Source: Drancourtella massiliensis (GTDB lineage Bacteria; Bacillota; Clostridia; Lachnospirales; Lachnospiraceae). Taken from it: a stretch of DNA of 64,000 bases. Where the stretch lies: positions 83,673 through 147,672 of the forward strand of contig NZ_JACJKH010000005.1 in the NCBI RefSeq assembly GCF_016900655.1, written 5' to 3'. Below the pieces are notes generated by a model. That model was not told the origin of the DNA. It saw nothing but the letters and a program-made list of their open reading frames with translations, and searched no databases. Below, one piece after another: positions 15,476-18,184 of this stretch. The stretch's first letter is position 1. The number at the start of each line of letters is the position of its first letter. The position numbers and the translations under genes were made by a program.

Positions 15476-15712
15476 ATGCAGAATTATTATCAGCGCCCTC
15501 CGTTCCGCCAGCCTTATAAGAATCAGGATCACACGGGAAAGAGCATCTGCGGCGCGAAAGAAAATCTGAAAAAAGAGTTTCCTGTTGCAATGGCTTATGT
15601 CCCGTGGCAGCGCTATATGGAACCTTACCCGGTTTGCAGGGCCTTTATACGGGGGACTATTTTCGAGGAGCTCGACAAACCGTTTCTTGGCAAAGGAGGC
15701 TGCTGTTCATGA
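15476..15712 (+). CDS. cotJA: Spore coat-associated protein CotJA
   Basis: Small spore coat protein of 78 residues. The ATG at 15476 has AAAGGAG upstream. The central core VAMAYVPWQRYMEPYPVC and the C-terminal GTIFEELDKPFLGKGGC match the CotJA family, whose hallmark is MAYVPWQ followed by GTIFPELDKPF. It is the first gene of the plus-strand cotJ operon, overlaps cotJB by four bases (ATGA), and stands behind a sigma-E-like promoter. Expected site of action is the mother cell, in the inner coat with CotJC. Confidence 0.93.
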   Translation: MQNYYQRPPFRQPYKNQDHTGKSICGAKENLKKEFPVAMAYVPWQRYMEPYPVCRAFIRGTIFEELDKPFLGKGGCCS

Positions 15713-15978
15713 AAAACTTTCCTTCACGAAAAGAGCTTTTAAACCATATTAACACTGTCAGCTTTGCTGTAAATGACATTCAGCTGTATCTCGACACACA
15801 TCCGGATGACGAAGAAGCACTCGCCTTTTTTCACAAATATAAAGAGCAGCGTATCAAGGCGCTGGAAGAATATGCAGCATGTTATGGTCCTCTCACCATT
15901 GACAGTACGGACGAATCATGCGGGGACCGCTGGAACTGGATCAACGAACCATGGCCATGGCAGGAAGGAGGATGCTGA
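15709..15978 (+). CDS. cotJB: Spore coat protein CotJB
   Basis: It has 89 residues. LLNHINTVSFAVNDIQLYLDTHPDD, then YKEQRIKALEEYAACYGPLT and a C-terminus ending WINEPWPWQEGGC are typical of CotJB. The ATG at 15709 overlaps the cotJA stop. GGAGG for it lies inside the end of cotJA (GGAGGCTGC). Only three bases separate it from cotJC, so the three cotJ genes are one transcript. Confidence 0.94.
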   Translation: MKNFPSRKELLNHINTVSFAVNDIQLYLDTHPDDEEALAFFHKYKEQRIKALEEYAACYGPLTIDSTDESCGDRWNWINEPWPWQEGGC

Positions 15979-15981
15979 TTT

Positions 15982-16269
15982 ATGTGGAATTATGAAAAAC
16001 GTCTTCAGTTTCCGGTAAAAATTTCAAAACCGGATCCAAAAGCGGCCCAGATTATCATCAGTCAGTTCGGAGGCCCTGACGGAGAGCTTGCAGCATCCAT
16101 GCGCTACCTCTCTCAACGGTATACCATGCCTTACAAAGAGGTTACCGGAATTCTGACCGATATCGGGACCGAAGAATCCGCTCCGATTTCTTATTTCTTT
16201 TTTGTCTTTCTTTGTCTTTTTCCGTCTAAAAATGTCGTATTTATATTTCCCGGCTTTTCTATATTATAA
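15982..16269 (+). CDS. cotJC: CotJC, 5' part of a split gene (interrupted after residue 65)
   Basis: N-terminal part of the manganese-catalase-like spore coat protein CotJC. Residues 1-65 read MWNYEKRLQFPVKISKPD through GGPDGELAASMRYLSQRY (Glu35 is a metal ligand) to LTDIGTEE, all family-like. From 16177 the reading frame enters inserted DNA and runs 30 hydrophobic, unrelated residues to a stop at 16269. GGAGGATGC ends just before the start. The missing remainder of the protein is found intact and in frame 1.6 kb downstream, at 17762-18184. In the integrated state this fragment cannot be an active catalase because it ends inside the EExxH motif. Confidence 0.92.
   Translation: MWNYEKRLQFPVKISKPDPKAAQIIISQFGGPDGELAASMRYLSQRYTMPYKEVTGILTDIGTEESAPISYFFFVFLCLFPSKNVVFIFPGFSIL
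16160..16185 (+). other. Left attachment site of the cotJC element
   Basis: Gene-side half ATATCGGGACC, core GAAGAA (16171-16176), element-side half TCCGCTCCG. Flanks agree with the right site at CGG, C and CGC around the core, but identity outside GAAGAA is low, as expected for attL and attR of a serine recombinase. Confidence 0.8.
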
Positions 16270-16313
16270 TAGAACATTATGGTGTTGTCTCAGATGTAAG
16301 AGAAAGGAGAATC

Positions 16314-16649
16314 ATGGAAAATCTTTCGCAGCTGATTCACAGGCTGGGTATCAATGCCACTTACCGCGGGTATCACTACCTCTACAGAGCAGTCATTCTT
16401 GCCCTGTCCAATGAAGAGTATCTTCTTTCCATCACAAAAAAGCTGTATCTTGATATCGCTTCTTATTATCATACTCCGGTAAGTAATGTAGAACGAAACC
16501 TCCGTACAGTAATCACGATTTGCTGGGAACGTGGAAACAGAGAGTTTTTAAGTCAGATTGCATCCTATCCTCTTGGCTTTAAACCTTCTGCCGGAGAATT
16601 CATTGATATCCTTGTTGCTTATTGCCAGGAACATAACATCAGACATTGA
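16314..16649 (+). CDS. Free-standing Spo0A C-terminal-type DNA-binding domain protein
   Basis: It has 111 residues. LIHRLGINATYRGYHYLYRA corresponds to the start of the Spo0A effector domain, and TPVSNVERNLRTVITICWER to its recognition helices. Length equals the effector domain alone; there is no receiver domain, so phosphorylation cannot control it in the usual way. The ATG at 16314 has AAAGGAG upstream. A TATAAT at 16265-16270 and a 0A-like TGTCGTA at 16233-16239 precede it. It lies wholly inside the cotJC element, upstream of the recombinase. It may time recombinase expression, act as a directionality factor, or bind 0A boxes. These roles are inference. Confidence 0.85.
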   Translation: MENLSQLIHRLGINATYRGYHYLYRAVILALSNEEYLLSITKKLYLDIASYYHTPVSNVERNLRTVITICWERGNREFLSQIASYPLGFKPSAGEFIDILVAYCQEHNIRH

Positions 16650-16774
16650 TCCGGTTACATATTGTTCATGCTTTTTTCAAATCAGAAACATATTTTTTTC
16701 ATATTCTTCCTGTATATTAAAACACATAGAAAGCAAAACCTTTCTAAGTAAACAATTTTCTTTTTCATAATTCA

Positions 16775-16795
16775 GCCGGTACATTTTGTACCGGC
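16775..16795 (+). terminator. Perfect hairpin between the Spo0A-like gene and the recombinase
   Basis: GCCGGTACA, loop TTT, TGTACCGGC. It sits 126 bases after the stop at 16649 and about 75 before the recombinase start. It lacks an immediate T-run (ACTCCTCATTTTT follows), so it may be a terminator, an attenuator or a protein-binding dyad. The rest of the gap 16650-16868 is AT-rich, and I see no other gene in it. Confidence 0.55.
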
Positions 16796-16868
16796 ACTCC
16801 TCATTTTTGGACCTCTTTTTCATATCTTCTCTTTTTTATTCATAAATTTCTACAAAACAGTTAACAGG

Positions 16869-17786
16869 ATGATTTTTTTGTCTTATTGCATGTATCTTAG
16901 AAAATCCCGAAAAGATCTGGAAATGGAGCGTCTTCACCCGGGAAGCACACTTCTCCGGCATGAATCCGTTCTGAGATCCCTTGCCGACTCCATGTCTCTC
17001 CCCGTCCTGAAAATCTACCGGGAAGTCGGATCCGGAGATACGATCTCCGGCCGTCCCGTAATGAAACAGCTGCTTTCCGAGGTAGAACAGGGAAAGTGGG
17101 AAGGTGTCCTGGTTATGGAAATTGAACGTCTGGCAAGAGGCGACTCTATCGATCAGGGGATCGTAACACGGACTTTTCAGTACAGCGGCACGCGGATTAT
17201 AACCCCGTACAAAATCTACGAACCGGAAAATGATTTTGATCTGGAGTATTTTGAATTCAGTCTCTTCATGTCCCGCAGAGAGTATAAAACAATCAACCGG
17301 CGGATGCAGGCCGGAAGGCTCGCCAGTATCAAAGAGGGAAAATACGTCGGGAATATTGCCCCGTACGGATATGACCGTATTCGTCTTCCCGACCGGAAAG
17401 GTTTTACACTCTGCCCGAATCACGAATCTCCTGCTGTCCGTCTGATTTTTTCTCTTTACGGCGAAAAATCCTTCACTATTTCCGAAGTTGTCGGTGAACT
17501 GAACCGTTCCCGCACTTACCATCCCCGGAAAGCCCCTGCATTTACCTATTCCTCCGTTCACGATATACTGGATAATCCTGTCTATATCGGGAAACTTCGC
17601 TGGAATTACCGGAAGACTTCGCCAAAACTGAAGGATGGAATTCTTACTGCACACCGGCCAAGGCAGAACGACTATCTCATTGTCCAGGGTCTTCATCCCG
17701 CCCTGATCTCCGAAGACCTGTTTTTTACTGTTCAAAAGCGACTTCATCCTTATTCGGAGCAGAAGAACTCGCCCATATGGAAATGA
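16869..17786 (+). CDS. Serine site-specific recombinase, short large-serine-recombinase type
   Basis: Candidate enzyme for excising the cotJC element. It has 305 residues. YLRKSRKD (catalytic Ser13, Arg11), SGDTISGRP near 55-62 and EIERLARGDS at 84-93 are resolvase-domain motifs. Residues about 145-290 form a 'recombinase' DNA-binding domain (RLASIKEGKYVGNIAPYGY, PAVRLIFSLYG, VHDILDNPVYIG, ALISEDLFF). The zinc ribbon and coiled-coil arm of SpoIVCA- or SprA-like enzymes (about 500 residues) are absent. The last eight codons lie past the right core, in cotJC sequence, so the C-terminus changes upon excision. The start is uncertain: ATG 16869 or 16890, neither with a strong ribosome site. Confidence 0.9.
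   Translation: MIFLSYCMYLRKSRKDLEMERLHPGSTLLRHESVLRSLADSMSLPVLKIYREVGSGDTISGRPVMKQLLSEVEQGKWEGVLVMEIERLARGDSIDQGIVTRTFQYSGTRIITPYKIYEPENDFDLEYFEFSLFMSRREYKTINRRMQAGRLASIKEGKYVGNIAPYGYDRIRLPDRKGFTLCPNHESPAVRLIFSLYGEKSFTISEVVGELNRSRTYHPRKAPAFTYSSVHDILDNPVYIGKLRWNYRKTSPKLKDGILTAHRPRQNDYLIVQGLHPALISEDLFFTVQKRLHPYSEQKNSPIWK
17745..17778 (+). other. Right attachment site of the cotJC element
   Basis: Element-side half CGGAGCA, core GAAGAA (17762-17767), gene-side half CTCGCCCATAT. Joined with the left gene-side half, it makes an attB with ATAT...GGG and CCC...ATAT roughly symmetric about the core. The site overlaps the 3' end of the recombinase gene. Confidence 0.8.
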
Positions 17787-18184
17787 TCTGTGCCATTGTC
17801 CATCAGCTGACAAGAAACCTGTCCCCGGAAGAAATTGAGCGTTCCGGATTTGCCACATATTATGTGGACCATACACTGGCTCTCTGGCCTCAGGCCGCAA
17901 GCGGAATGCCATGGACCGCCACTGTATTCCAGTCCAAAGGGGATCCGATCACAGATCTTCACGAAAACCTTGCAGCAGAGCAAAAAGCCCGTACAACTTA
18001 TGATAACATTCTCCGTCTGATCGATGATCCGGATATCATCGCCCCGATCCGTTTCTTAAGAGAACGCGAAATTGTTCATTATCAACGTTTCGGCGAATCA
18101 CTCCGCATTGTAACCGACCATCTCGACAGTAAGAACTTCTATGCGTTCAACCCTGAATTTGACAATCCGGCCTGCCGATCCTGA
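17762..18184 (+). CDS. cotJC: CotJC, 3' part of the split gene (residues 64-203 of the restored protein)
   Basis: C-terminal two thirds of CotJC. The frame begins with EELAHMEMICAIVHQL at the right core and runs through PWTATVFQSKGDPITDLHEN, LAAEQKARTTYDN and FLREREIVHYQRF to a stop at 18184. These hold the remaining metal ligands expected for a manganese catalase: His68, Glu136 and His169 in restored numbering. There is no ribosome site or start of its own at the core, though an ATG at 17777 exists in frame, so it is probably silent until excision. No frameshift or stop is present, so the fragment looks kept under selection. Confidence 0.93.
   Translation, partial: EELAHMEMICAIVHQLTRNLSPEEIERSGFATYYVDHTLALWPQAASGMPWTATVFQSKGDPITDLHENLAAEQKARTTYDNILRLIDDPDIIAPIRFLREREIVHYQRFGESLRIVTDHLDSKNFYAFNPEFDNPACRS

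Follow-up and report, generated by a model that had tools for sequence, protein, structure and literature searches.

The stretch of DNA analysed here, the window, comprises 64,000 nucleotides of the gut bacterium Drancourtella massiliensis (contig NZ_JACJKH010000005.1, positions 83,673 to 147,672) and carries a cotJ operon formed by cotJA, cotJB and, in two pieces, the gene of the spore-coat protein CotJC, all of them on the forward strand. The first gene, cotJA (15476..15712), encodes 78 amino acids (CotJA, PF11007, 1.7e-18) and is followed by cotJB (15709..15978), which encodes 89 (CotJB, PF12652, 1.1e-31). The 5' half of cotJC (15982..16176) comprises codons 1-65, up to the left attachment site (attL), and the 3' half (17768..18184) supplies codons 66-203 and the stop, both halves being above the cut-off for Mn_catalase (PF05067; 4.9e-21 and 4e-21, respectively). 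Between them lies an intervening element of 1,591 bp (16177..17767, forward strand), delimited by the word GAAGAA, which starts at 16171 and at 17762 and is in the cotJC frame at both places, forming the cores of attL (16171..16176) and of the right attachment site, attR (17762..17767); crossover is predicted at the G|A of codon 65, between 16174 and 16175. The cores are assigned from the repeat match and from the palindrome centre of the rebuilt phage-type site (attP), and the element from the repeat spacing, the join and its presence in a second genome of the genus. After cutting out the 1,591 bp, a single frame of 203 residues results, and the joined CotJC retains E35, E65, H68, E136 and H169, which we take to be the manganese ligands. 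An earlier reading made from the letters alone (the sequence-only reading) had described this split and its in-frame repair; its coordinates and spacing proved right, and the 203-residue product with the five residues was reproduced by joining the halves. Furthermore, a PF05067 search of the whole genome (99.95% complete) found no cotJC beyond the two pieces. As argued below, the insert is likely a programmed-excision element, whose own shortened recombinase would join attL to attR in the mother cell and thereby restore cotJC.

Only two genes, of which the sequence-only reading made no mention, were recognised in the element, and they encode a serine recombinase and a small protein, SpoL. The recombinase (16869..17786, forward strand) has 305 amino acids, or 302 if started from the TTG at 16878, and its open reading frame (ORF) passes through attR, with the last codons and the stop inside cotJC. 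It has the resolvase (PF00239) and recombinase (PF07508) domains, both of which are expected of a large serine recombinase, and the zinc ribbon and coiled coil are absent from it, from its counterpart in the second genome and from the eight short clusters described below. In alignments, it stops ahead of the zinc ribbon and coiled coil of eight full-length relatives, and 17 of 19 relatives measure 510-626 amino acids, the other two having 302 (G002, the second genome) and 343 (L057). Judged by these alignments, it is a shortened descendant of the large serine recombinases rather than a full member. In large serine integrases, the zinc ribbon and coiled coil serve to read the outer arm of the DNA and to control direction. 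The YLRKSR motif, whose serine is presumably the catalytic nucleophile, is invariant in the aligned recombinase sets. A structure model of the protein (mean predicted local distance difference test score of 82.5, predicted template modelling score of 0.54) matches SprA of SPbeta first and also the phiC31 integrase, and SprA (YokA), which catalyses SPbeta excision from spsM, is the sole solved relative found by sequence, at 30-33% identity. Might a full-length integrase encoded elsewhere in the genome help the short recombinase in trans? There are two other recombinase matches on contig C77, but they share no more than 24-29% identity with the short recombinase, which is itself under strong selection, so we consider such help extremely improbable.

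SpoL (16314..16649, forward strand; 111 amino acids) consists of the Spo0A DNA-binding domain (PF08769, 4.7e-31; Spo0A-C structures 1fc3 and 1lq1) with no receiver, and is not a Spo0A response regulator; a separate full-length Spo0A is present in the genome. It retains the VER motif of the Spo0A recognition helix, presumably involved in DNA contact, and its closest relatives show 61-97% identity, one of which (P0126) comes, like the recombinase relative P0196, from a contig of 327,059 bases. Domain searches found no directionality-factor family among the element proteins, the Spo0A_C protein being the only other recognised gene product, and no phage genes in the 1,591 bp, the structural and replication genes that define a prophage included.

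Putative regulatory sites precede both genes. Upstream of SpoL there are four GTC boxes in exact 10-bp steps (16204..16236, forward strand), which we assume to resemble 0A boxes and all of which are present in G002; a TATAAT comes after them. Between the two genes, a hairpin (16775..16795, forward strand; fold z-score of -5.9; stem kept in G002) is a possible terminator of SpoL. Upstream of the recombinase, a promoter of the form TCATATC-N14-CATAAATT (16820..16848, forward strand) is labelled sigma-E-like after the consensus that we presume for this factor; its boxes are kept in G002 except for one base (CATAAGTT as the second box) and its spacer has diverged. The GTC-box and promoter patterns, written after the sites had been seen and with generous expected counts, match once (0.02 expected) and twice in the window (0.20 expected), respectively. 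A candidate SpoIIID site close to where the recombinase gene begins was dropped, as it is not conserved in G002. Taken together, the promoter and the four boxes suggest a sporulation timing of the element.

Two genomes of the same genus, G001 and G002, were compared with that of the window (G000). In G002, cotJC is interrupted by the same insert at an identical position, with a spacing of 1,595 bp and both halves intact. Relatives with an uninterrupted cotJC, to which the sequence-only reading had pointed for comparison, do occur within the genus, as G001 holds such an empty site, 95% identical. Between G000 and G002, the recombinase has a ratio of nonsynonymous to synonymous substitution rates (dN/dS, Nei-Gojobori) of 0.077, SpoL one of 0.050 and each half of cotJC one of 0.021, at dS values of 0.95-1.44, which are near saturation and make the ratios rough. 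By this measure, purifying selection acts on the two cotJC halves as well as on the recombinase and SpoL genes, a result that, together with the PF05067 matches, bears out the earlier statement that neither half has decayed; the reading of cotJC as a decayed pseudogene was rejected on this selection and on the open joins reported below. In cotJA and cotJB, G000 is closer to G001 than to G002, which is not so for cotJC by dS, and because of this difference in the similarity patterns the block of cotJC and its element may have moved between species.

Among the best 120 of 6,129 recombinase matches there are 8 clusters of 297-305 amino acids with 57-99% identity (P0190-P0196 and P0201), including that of the window; another three short sequences (of 172, 201 and 241 amino acids) look like fragments and were excluded. 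P0195 appears to be chimeric with P0194, and P0193 is possibly the protein of G002 itself. Seven of the eight clusters have the C-terminal sequence KNSPIWK or KNSPTWK, which derives from cotJC codons, and hence sit at the same junction. A misassembly was rejected, since the recombinase-cotJC junction is also found in G002 and in six of the other seven short clusters. Would a dead insertion, that is, a decayed phage remnant with an inactive, shortened recombinase and a knocked-out cotJC, explain the locus as well? It would agree with a recombinase shorter than 17 of its 19 relatives, with the lack of phage genes and with the fact that no excised form was seen among the CotJC clusters listed or in viral contigs. 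Nonetheless, the halves and the element genes are intact and selected at such dS values, the short form persists in 8 clusters, the YLRKSR motif does not vary and the promoter boxes are conserved in G002, and we regard a dead insertion as very unlikely.

The crossover point was approached by rebuilding attP from the inner flanks of the site-A junctions and scoring its palindrome out of 13. The best centre is the G|A of codon 65 (Glu65) in 30 of 48 junctions, including those of G000 and G002, and the others centre on the GG of codon 62 (nine) or are scattered (nine, with scores of 7 or less); scores of at least 9 are reached by 21 junctions at codon 65 and by 5 at codon 62. In the 28 other codon-65 junctions the arms are palindromic to about 24 bases, and their recombinases are long, those of L175 and L201 having the zinc-ribbon part in another frame. 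The inner arm of attP (positions 4-11) is kept at 7 of 8 positions in G000 and 6 of 8 in G002, and the outer arm (positions 12-19) is near chance in both (3 of 8 and 2 of 8, with a mean of 6.2 of 8 and a minimum of 4 in the 28 relatives). On the sequence, this weak outer arm fits the loss of the domain that would read it.

An attP-like palindrome with a matching core also lies just after the integrase gene of Dorea phage DO134P1 and of Paenibacillus phage phiIBB_Pl23; in THSA-485A, the third of the three phages inspected, no matching attP was found in the short stretch inspected. That free phages carry related integrases, two of three with such a palindrome, and that conserved codons are often integrase targets, would also be expected of an ordinary small mobile island tolerating cotJC as its place, excised and reinserted constitutively at a low level with no sporulation switch. 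We hold this to be unlikely, given the Spo0A-type partner, the sigma-E-like promoter and the choice of the sole detected cotJC as target; furthermore, directional integration would be doubtful for an enzyme devoid of the zinc ribbon and coiled coil.

Interrupted cotJC genes are found well beyond this genus. A cotJC match is present in 241 of 397 genomes drawn from the family, and in at least 45 of the 241 the gene is in pieces, several of these genomes keeping an intact copy too. In 69 of the 241, picked for weak or multiple cotJC matches and inspected closely, the break points form clusters at residues ~28-35, 62-66 and 133-137 and a more diffuse one at 165-181, in the vicinity of the presumed ligands E35, E65/H68, E136 and H169. 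The pieces were fetched for the 45 genomes, giving 46 junctions, and lie on different contigs in eight of them. Spacings on a single contig range from 1.6 to ~42 kb in the family and up to ~57 kb in Anaerocolumna, the window element being the smallest of 38 such elements measured, followed by those of G002 (1,595 bp) and G311 (~1.7 kb). The earlier remark that skin and SPbeta are far larger is thus right for the element of the window but fails as a general trait, with relatives at ~42 and ~57 kb. There are also genes in three pieces, on one contig in G254 and on two in G284, and two Anaerocolumna chromosomes titled complete, NZ_CP121445.1 (G400) and NZ_CP133190.1 (G401), hold one intact and one three-piece cotJC each, the latter with spacings of ~7 and 37 kb in the first and of 6 and 57 kb in the second.

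Stops or frameshifts in the cotJC halves of relatives had been named, besides a lack of excised junctions in sporulating cells, as marks of a dead insertion. The result went the other way: 61 of 62 junctions (46 from the family and 16 from species genomes) rejoin to an open frame, and the remaining one (G167) falls short of the length cut by 2 residues. The rule applied takes the best-scoring join among all in-register dinucleotides that the two sides share, which makes it a test of openness rather more than of register. It follows each frame no further than the end of the downstream match, where in several cases the gene breaks again or the contig stops. By the rule of the longest shared word, register zero gives the longest in 30 of 46 junctions, with at least one junction mis-picked. 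Scanned with an alignment of ten recombinases, not all of them located at cotJC, cotJC adjoins a recombinase relative within the fetched stretch in 74 of the best 80 species-genome loci and in 16 of the best 80 viral-contig loci (L235 having a SpoL-like match only); both scans cover the best 80 of more matches, and the number of matches in species genomes is itself a lower bound. Selection, a recurrent crossover point, the open joins and the kinship with SprA thus strengthen the proposal of the sequence-only reading that the insert is a candidate excisable gene-intervening element. Regarding its second gene, Spo0A_C proteins are encoded in 4 of 11 elements below 5 kb, representing three lineages, and in none of 27 larger same-contig elements; a Poisson estimate on the three lineages, which assumes 55-100 background hits and a 5-kb limit picked after looking, gives P of ~2e-7 to 1e-6 in the small elements and of 0.001 to 0.006 for all 38 taken together.

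These data are best explained by a sporulation gene-intervening element of the skin or SPbeta/spsM type that is reduced and likely functional. Its target gene is new, and its novel parts are a short recombinase and a Spo0A-like partner; that its excision would be programmed, in sporulating cells, we infer. At the onset of sporulation, Spo0A, perhaps with SpoL itself, would turn on SpoL, which would bind the phased set of four boxes next to attL and would time or assist the excision. The recombinase would be transcribed by sigma-E and would recombine attL with attR at the G|A of codon 65, after which the restored cotJC would be transcribed with its operon. The element would be retained in the forespore, and the excision could be one-way because the mother cell dies. 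As to its origin, it most likely derives from a phage or island with a serine integrase targeting cotJC, reduced to two genes by a process that would have included the loss of the zinc ribbon and coiled coil of the recombinase. In Clostridioides difficile, the cotJC-type genes cotCB and cotD belong to the sigma-K regulon (PMC3789822), so that the restoration of cotJC might be needed late.

Several points weigh against this interpretation. Neither the excised junction nor the circle was seen, and the exact 24-base attP word is absent from the viral contigs. The joined CotJC is equalled by no representative among the 120 of 7,781 clusters listed (90% identity), which comprise representatives only, an identical member being possible within a cluster. 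The closest of them, P0001, is intact and identical over residues 58-203, with 10 differences before, and comes from a metagenome contig of 1,180 bp; this could be either an allele free of the element or a chimera. Besides, the intact CotJC of P0002 equals that of the window over residues 1-83 and differs elsewhere, and the two could represent mosaic alleles, chimeras or plain conservation. Known large serine integrases need both domains that the recombinase of the window is without, and the function of the short form is predicted. As many as 18 of the 48 site-A junctions are not centred on codon 65, and phased GTC boxes were not found in nine other elements below 5 kb, including two that have other Spo0A_C proteins. 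To these are added the saturation of dS and the labelling of the promoter and 0A-like boxes after a presumed consensus, by patterns fitted to sites already seen.

How does this element compare with the known ones? In Bacillus subtilis, the SPbeta prophage lies in the sporulation gene spsM, which is reconstituted (PMC4191935, PMC6957869), and it shares with the window element a serine recombinase of the same branch, a sporulation gene as target and, as predicted for cotJC, the gene reconstitution. It is, however, a full prophage with full-length SprA and SprB, unlike the 1.6-kb element in cotJC with its short recombinase, in which a Spo0A_C protein is found instead of any recognised SprB-like gene. 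The proposed likeness to skin in sigK of B. subtilis and C. difficile lies in a programmed excision that restores a mother-cell gene, and the differences in the target and the recombinase. In C. difficile skin the recombinase is constitutive and direction is given by CD1234, under sigma-E and SpoIIID (PMC5025042), whereas in the window it is the recombinase itself that has the sigma-E-like promoter. The gin element in gerE of Bacillus cereus ATCC10987, with the serine recombinase GirC and the factor GirX (PMC5595907), is likewise a non-prophage gene-intervening element, albeit with another gene and other proteins, the cotJC element having two genes only. Prophage-like elements also split spoVFB (vfbin) and yabG (yin) (PMC10747680). 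Both differ from the cotJC element in their target genes. They are also said to be larger. Finally, the C. difficile prophage phi027 adjoins the cotJC homologue CDR20291_1465 (cotG), which is described as a neighbour downstream of attR and not as split, and the available parts of its reports make no claim of gene restoration by excision (PMC11222575, PMC12122855). A split cotJC is not named in the open-licence PubMed Central literature searched, and appears unreported within that scope.

If the element works as proposed, cotJC is added as a target of likely programmed DNA excision, and genome annotations that list this gene as disrupted or missing in these species may be in error. The data also suggest that split sporulation genes are common, not rare, in gut Clostridia. 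With a short recombinase kept by selection, the dispensability of the zinc ribbon and coiled coil for an excision-only enzyme becomes testable, and the recombinase clade predicts gut-phage attachment sites. With a confidence only slightly above even, we would go further and propose that cotJC is a gene split at the DNA level across Clostridia, with as many as four insertion points close to the codons for manganese ligands, occupied by excisable elements of 1.6 to more than 40 kb, sometimes two per gene. In the genus of the window, such an element would have been domesticated into a two-gene device: a recombinase reduced to its catalytic and recombinase domains, with a tail and stop taken from cotJC and under sigma-E control, and a captured Spo0A DNA-binding domain, acting in a one-way excision in a doomed cell with no need of the usual directionality machinery.

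Some observations on the recombinases stand apart from this argument. Proteins of 329-330 amino acids represent 43 of the 120 clusters among the matches listed, two of them ending at the same point, and their interpretation as independent truncations was rejected, as the zinc-ribbon part follows in another frame at six inspected loci; the count of truly short forms was therefore confined to the 8 clusters above. In these loci (L163, L173, L175, L181, L201 and L213), the first ORF encodes domains 1-2, and close to where it ends the zinc ribbon and coiled coil continue in frame +1; all six have a CGG codon where the frame changes. On sequence grounds, a programmed +1 frameshift or a two-subunit enzyme is possible. 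A metagenome protein of 356 amino acids (P0198) has the recombinase domain fused in frame to the 3' half of CotJC, as if the recombinase frame had shifted into cotJC near attR. In a circular form of the element, the recombinase frame would extend to 378 amino acids (17762-17786 and then 16174 onward) and, in G002, to 362, counted from an internal start; through this extension, excision may alter or disable the recombinase.

Other observations concern split genes and the neighbourhood. In L140 (G061:C68), two 3' halves of cotJC lie ~3.5 kb apart on one contig, perhaps belonging to tandem elements. In G001, sigK is in two pieces ~25 kb apart (G001:C1:57063-57341 and 82751-83101; loci L321 and L322), the second of which adjoins apparent recombinase coding, resembling a skin-like element; the sigK match of G000 is in one piece and above the cut-off. 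Lastly, a gene for a metal-sensitive repressor (PF02583; 18278-18589) lies directly downstream of cotJC in the window, on the opposite strand.

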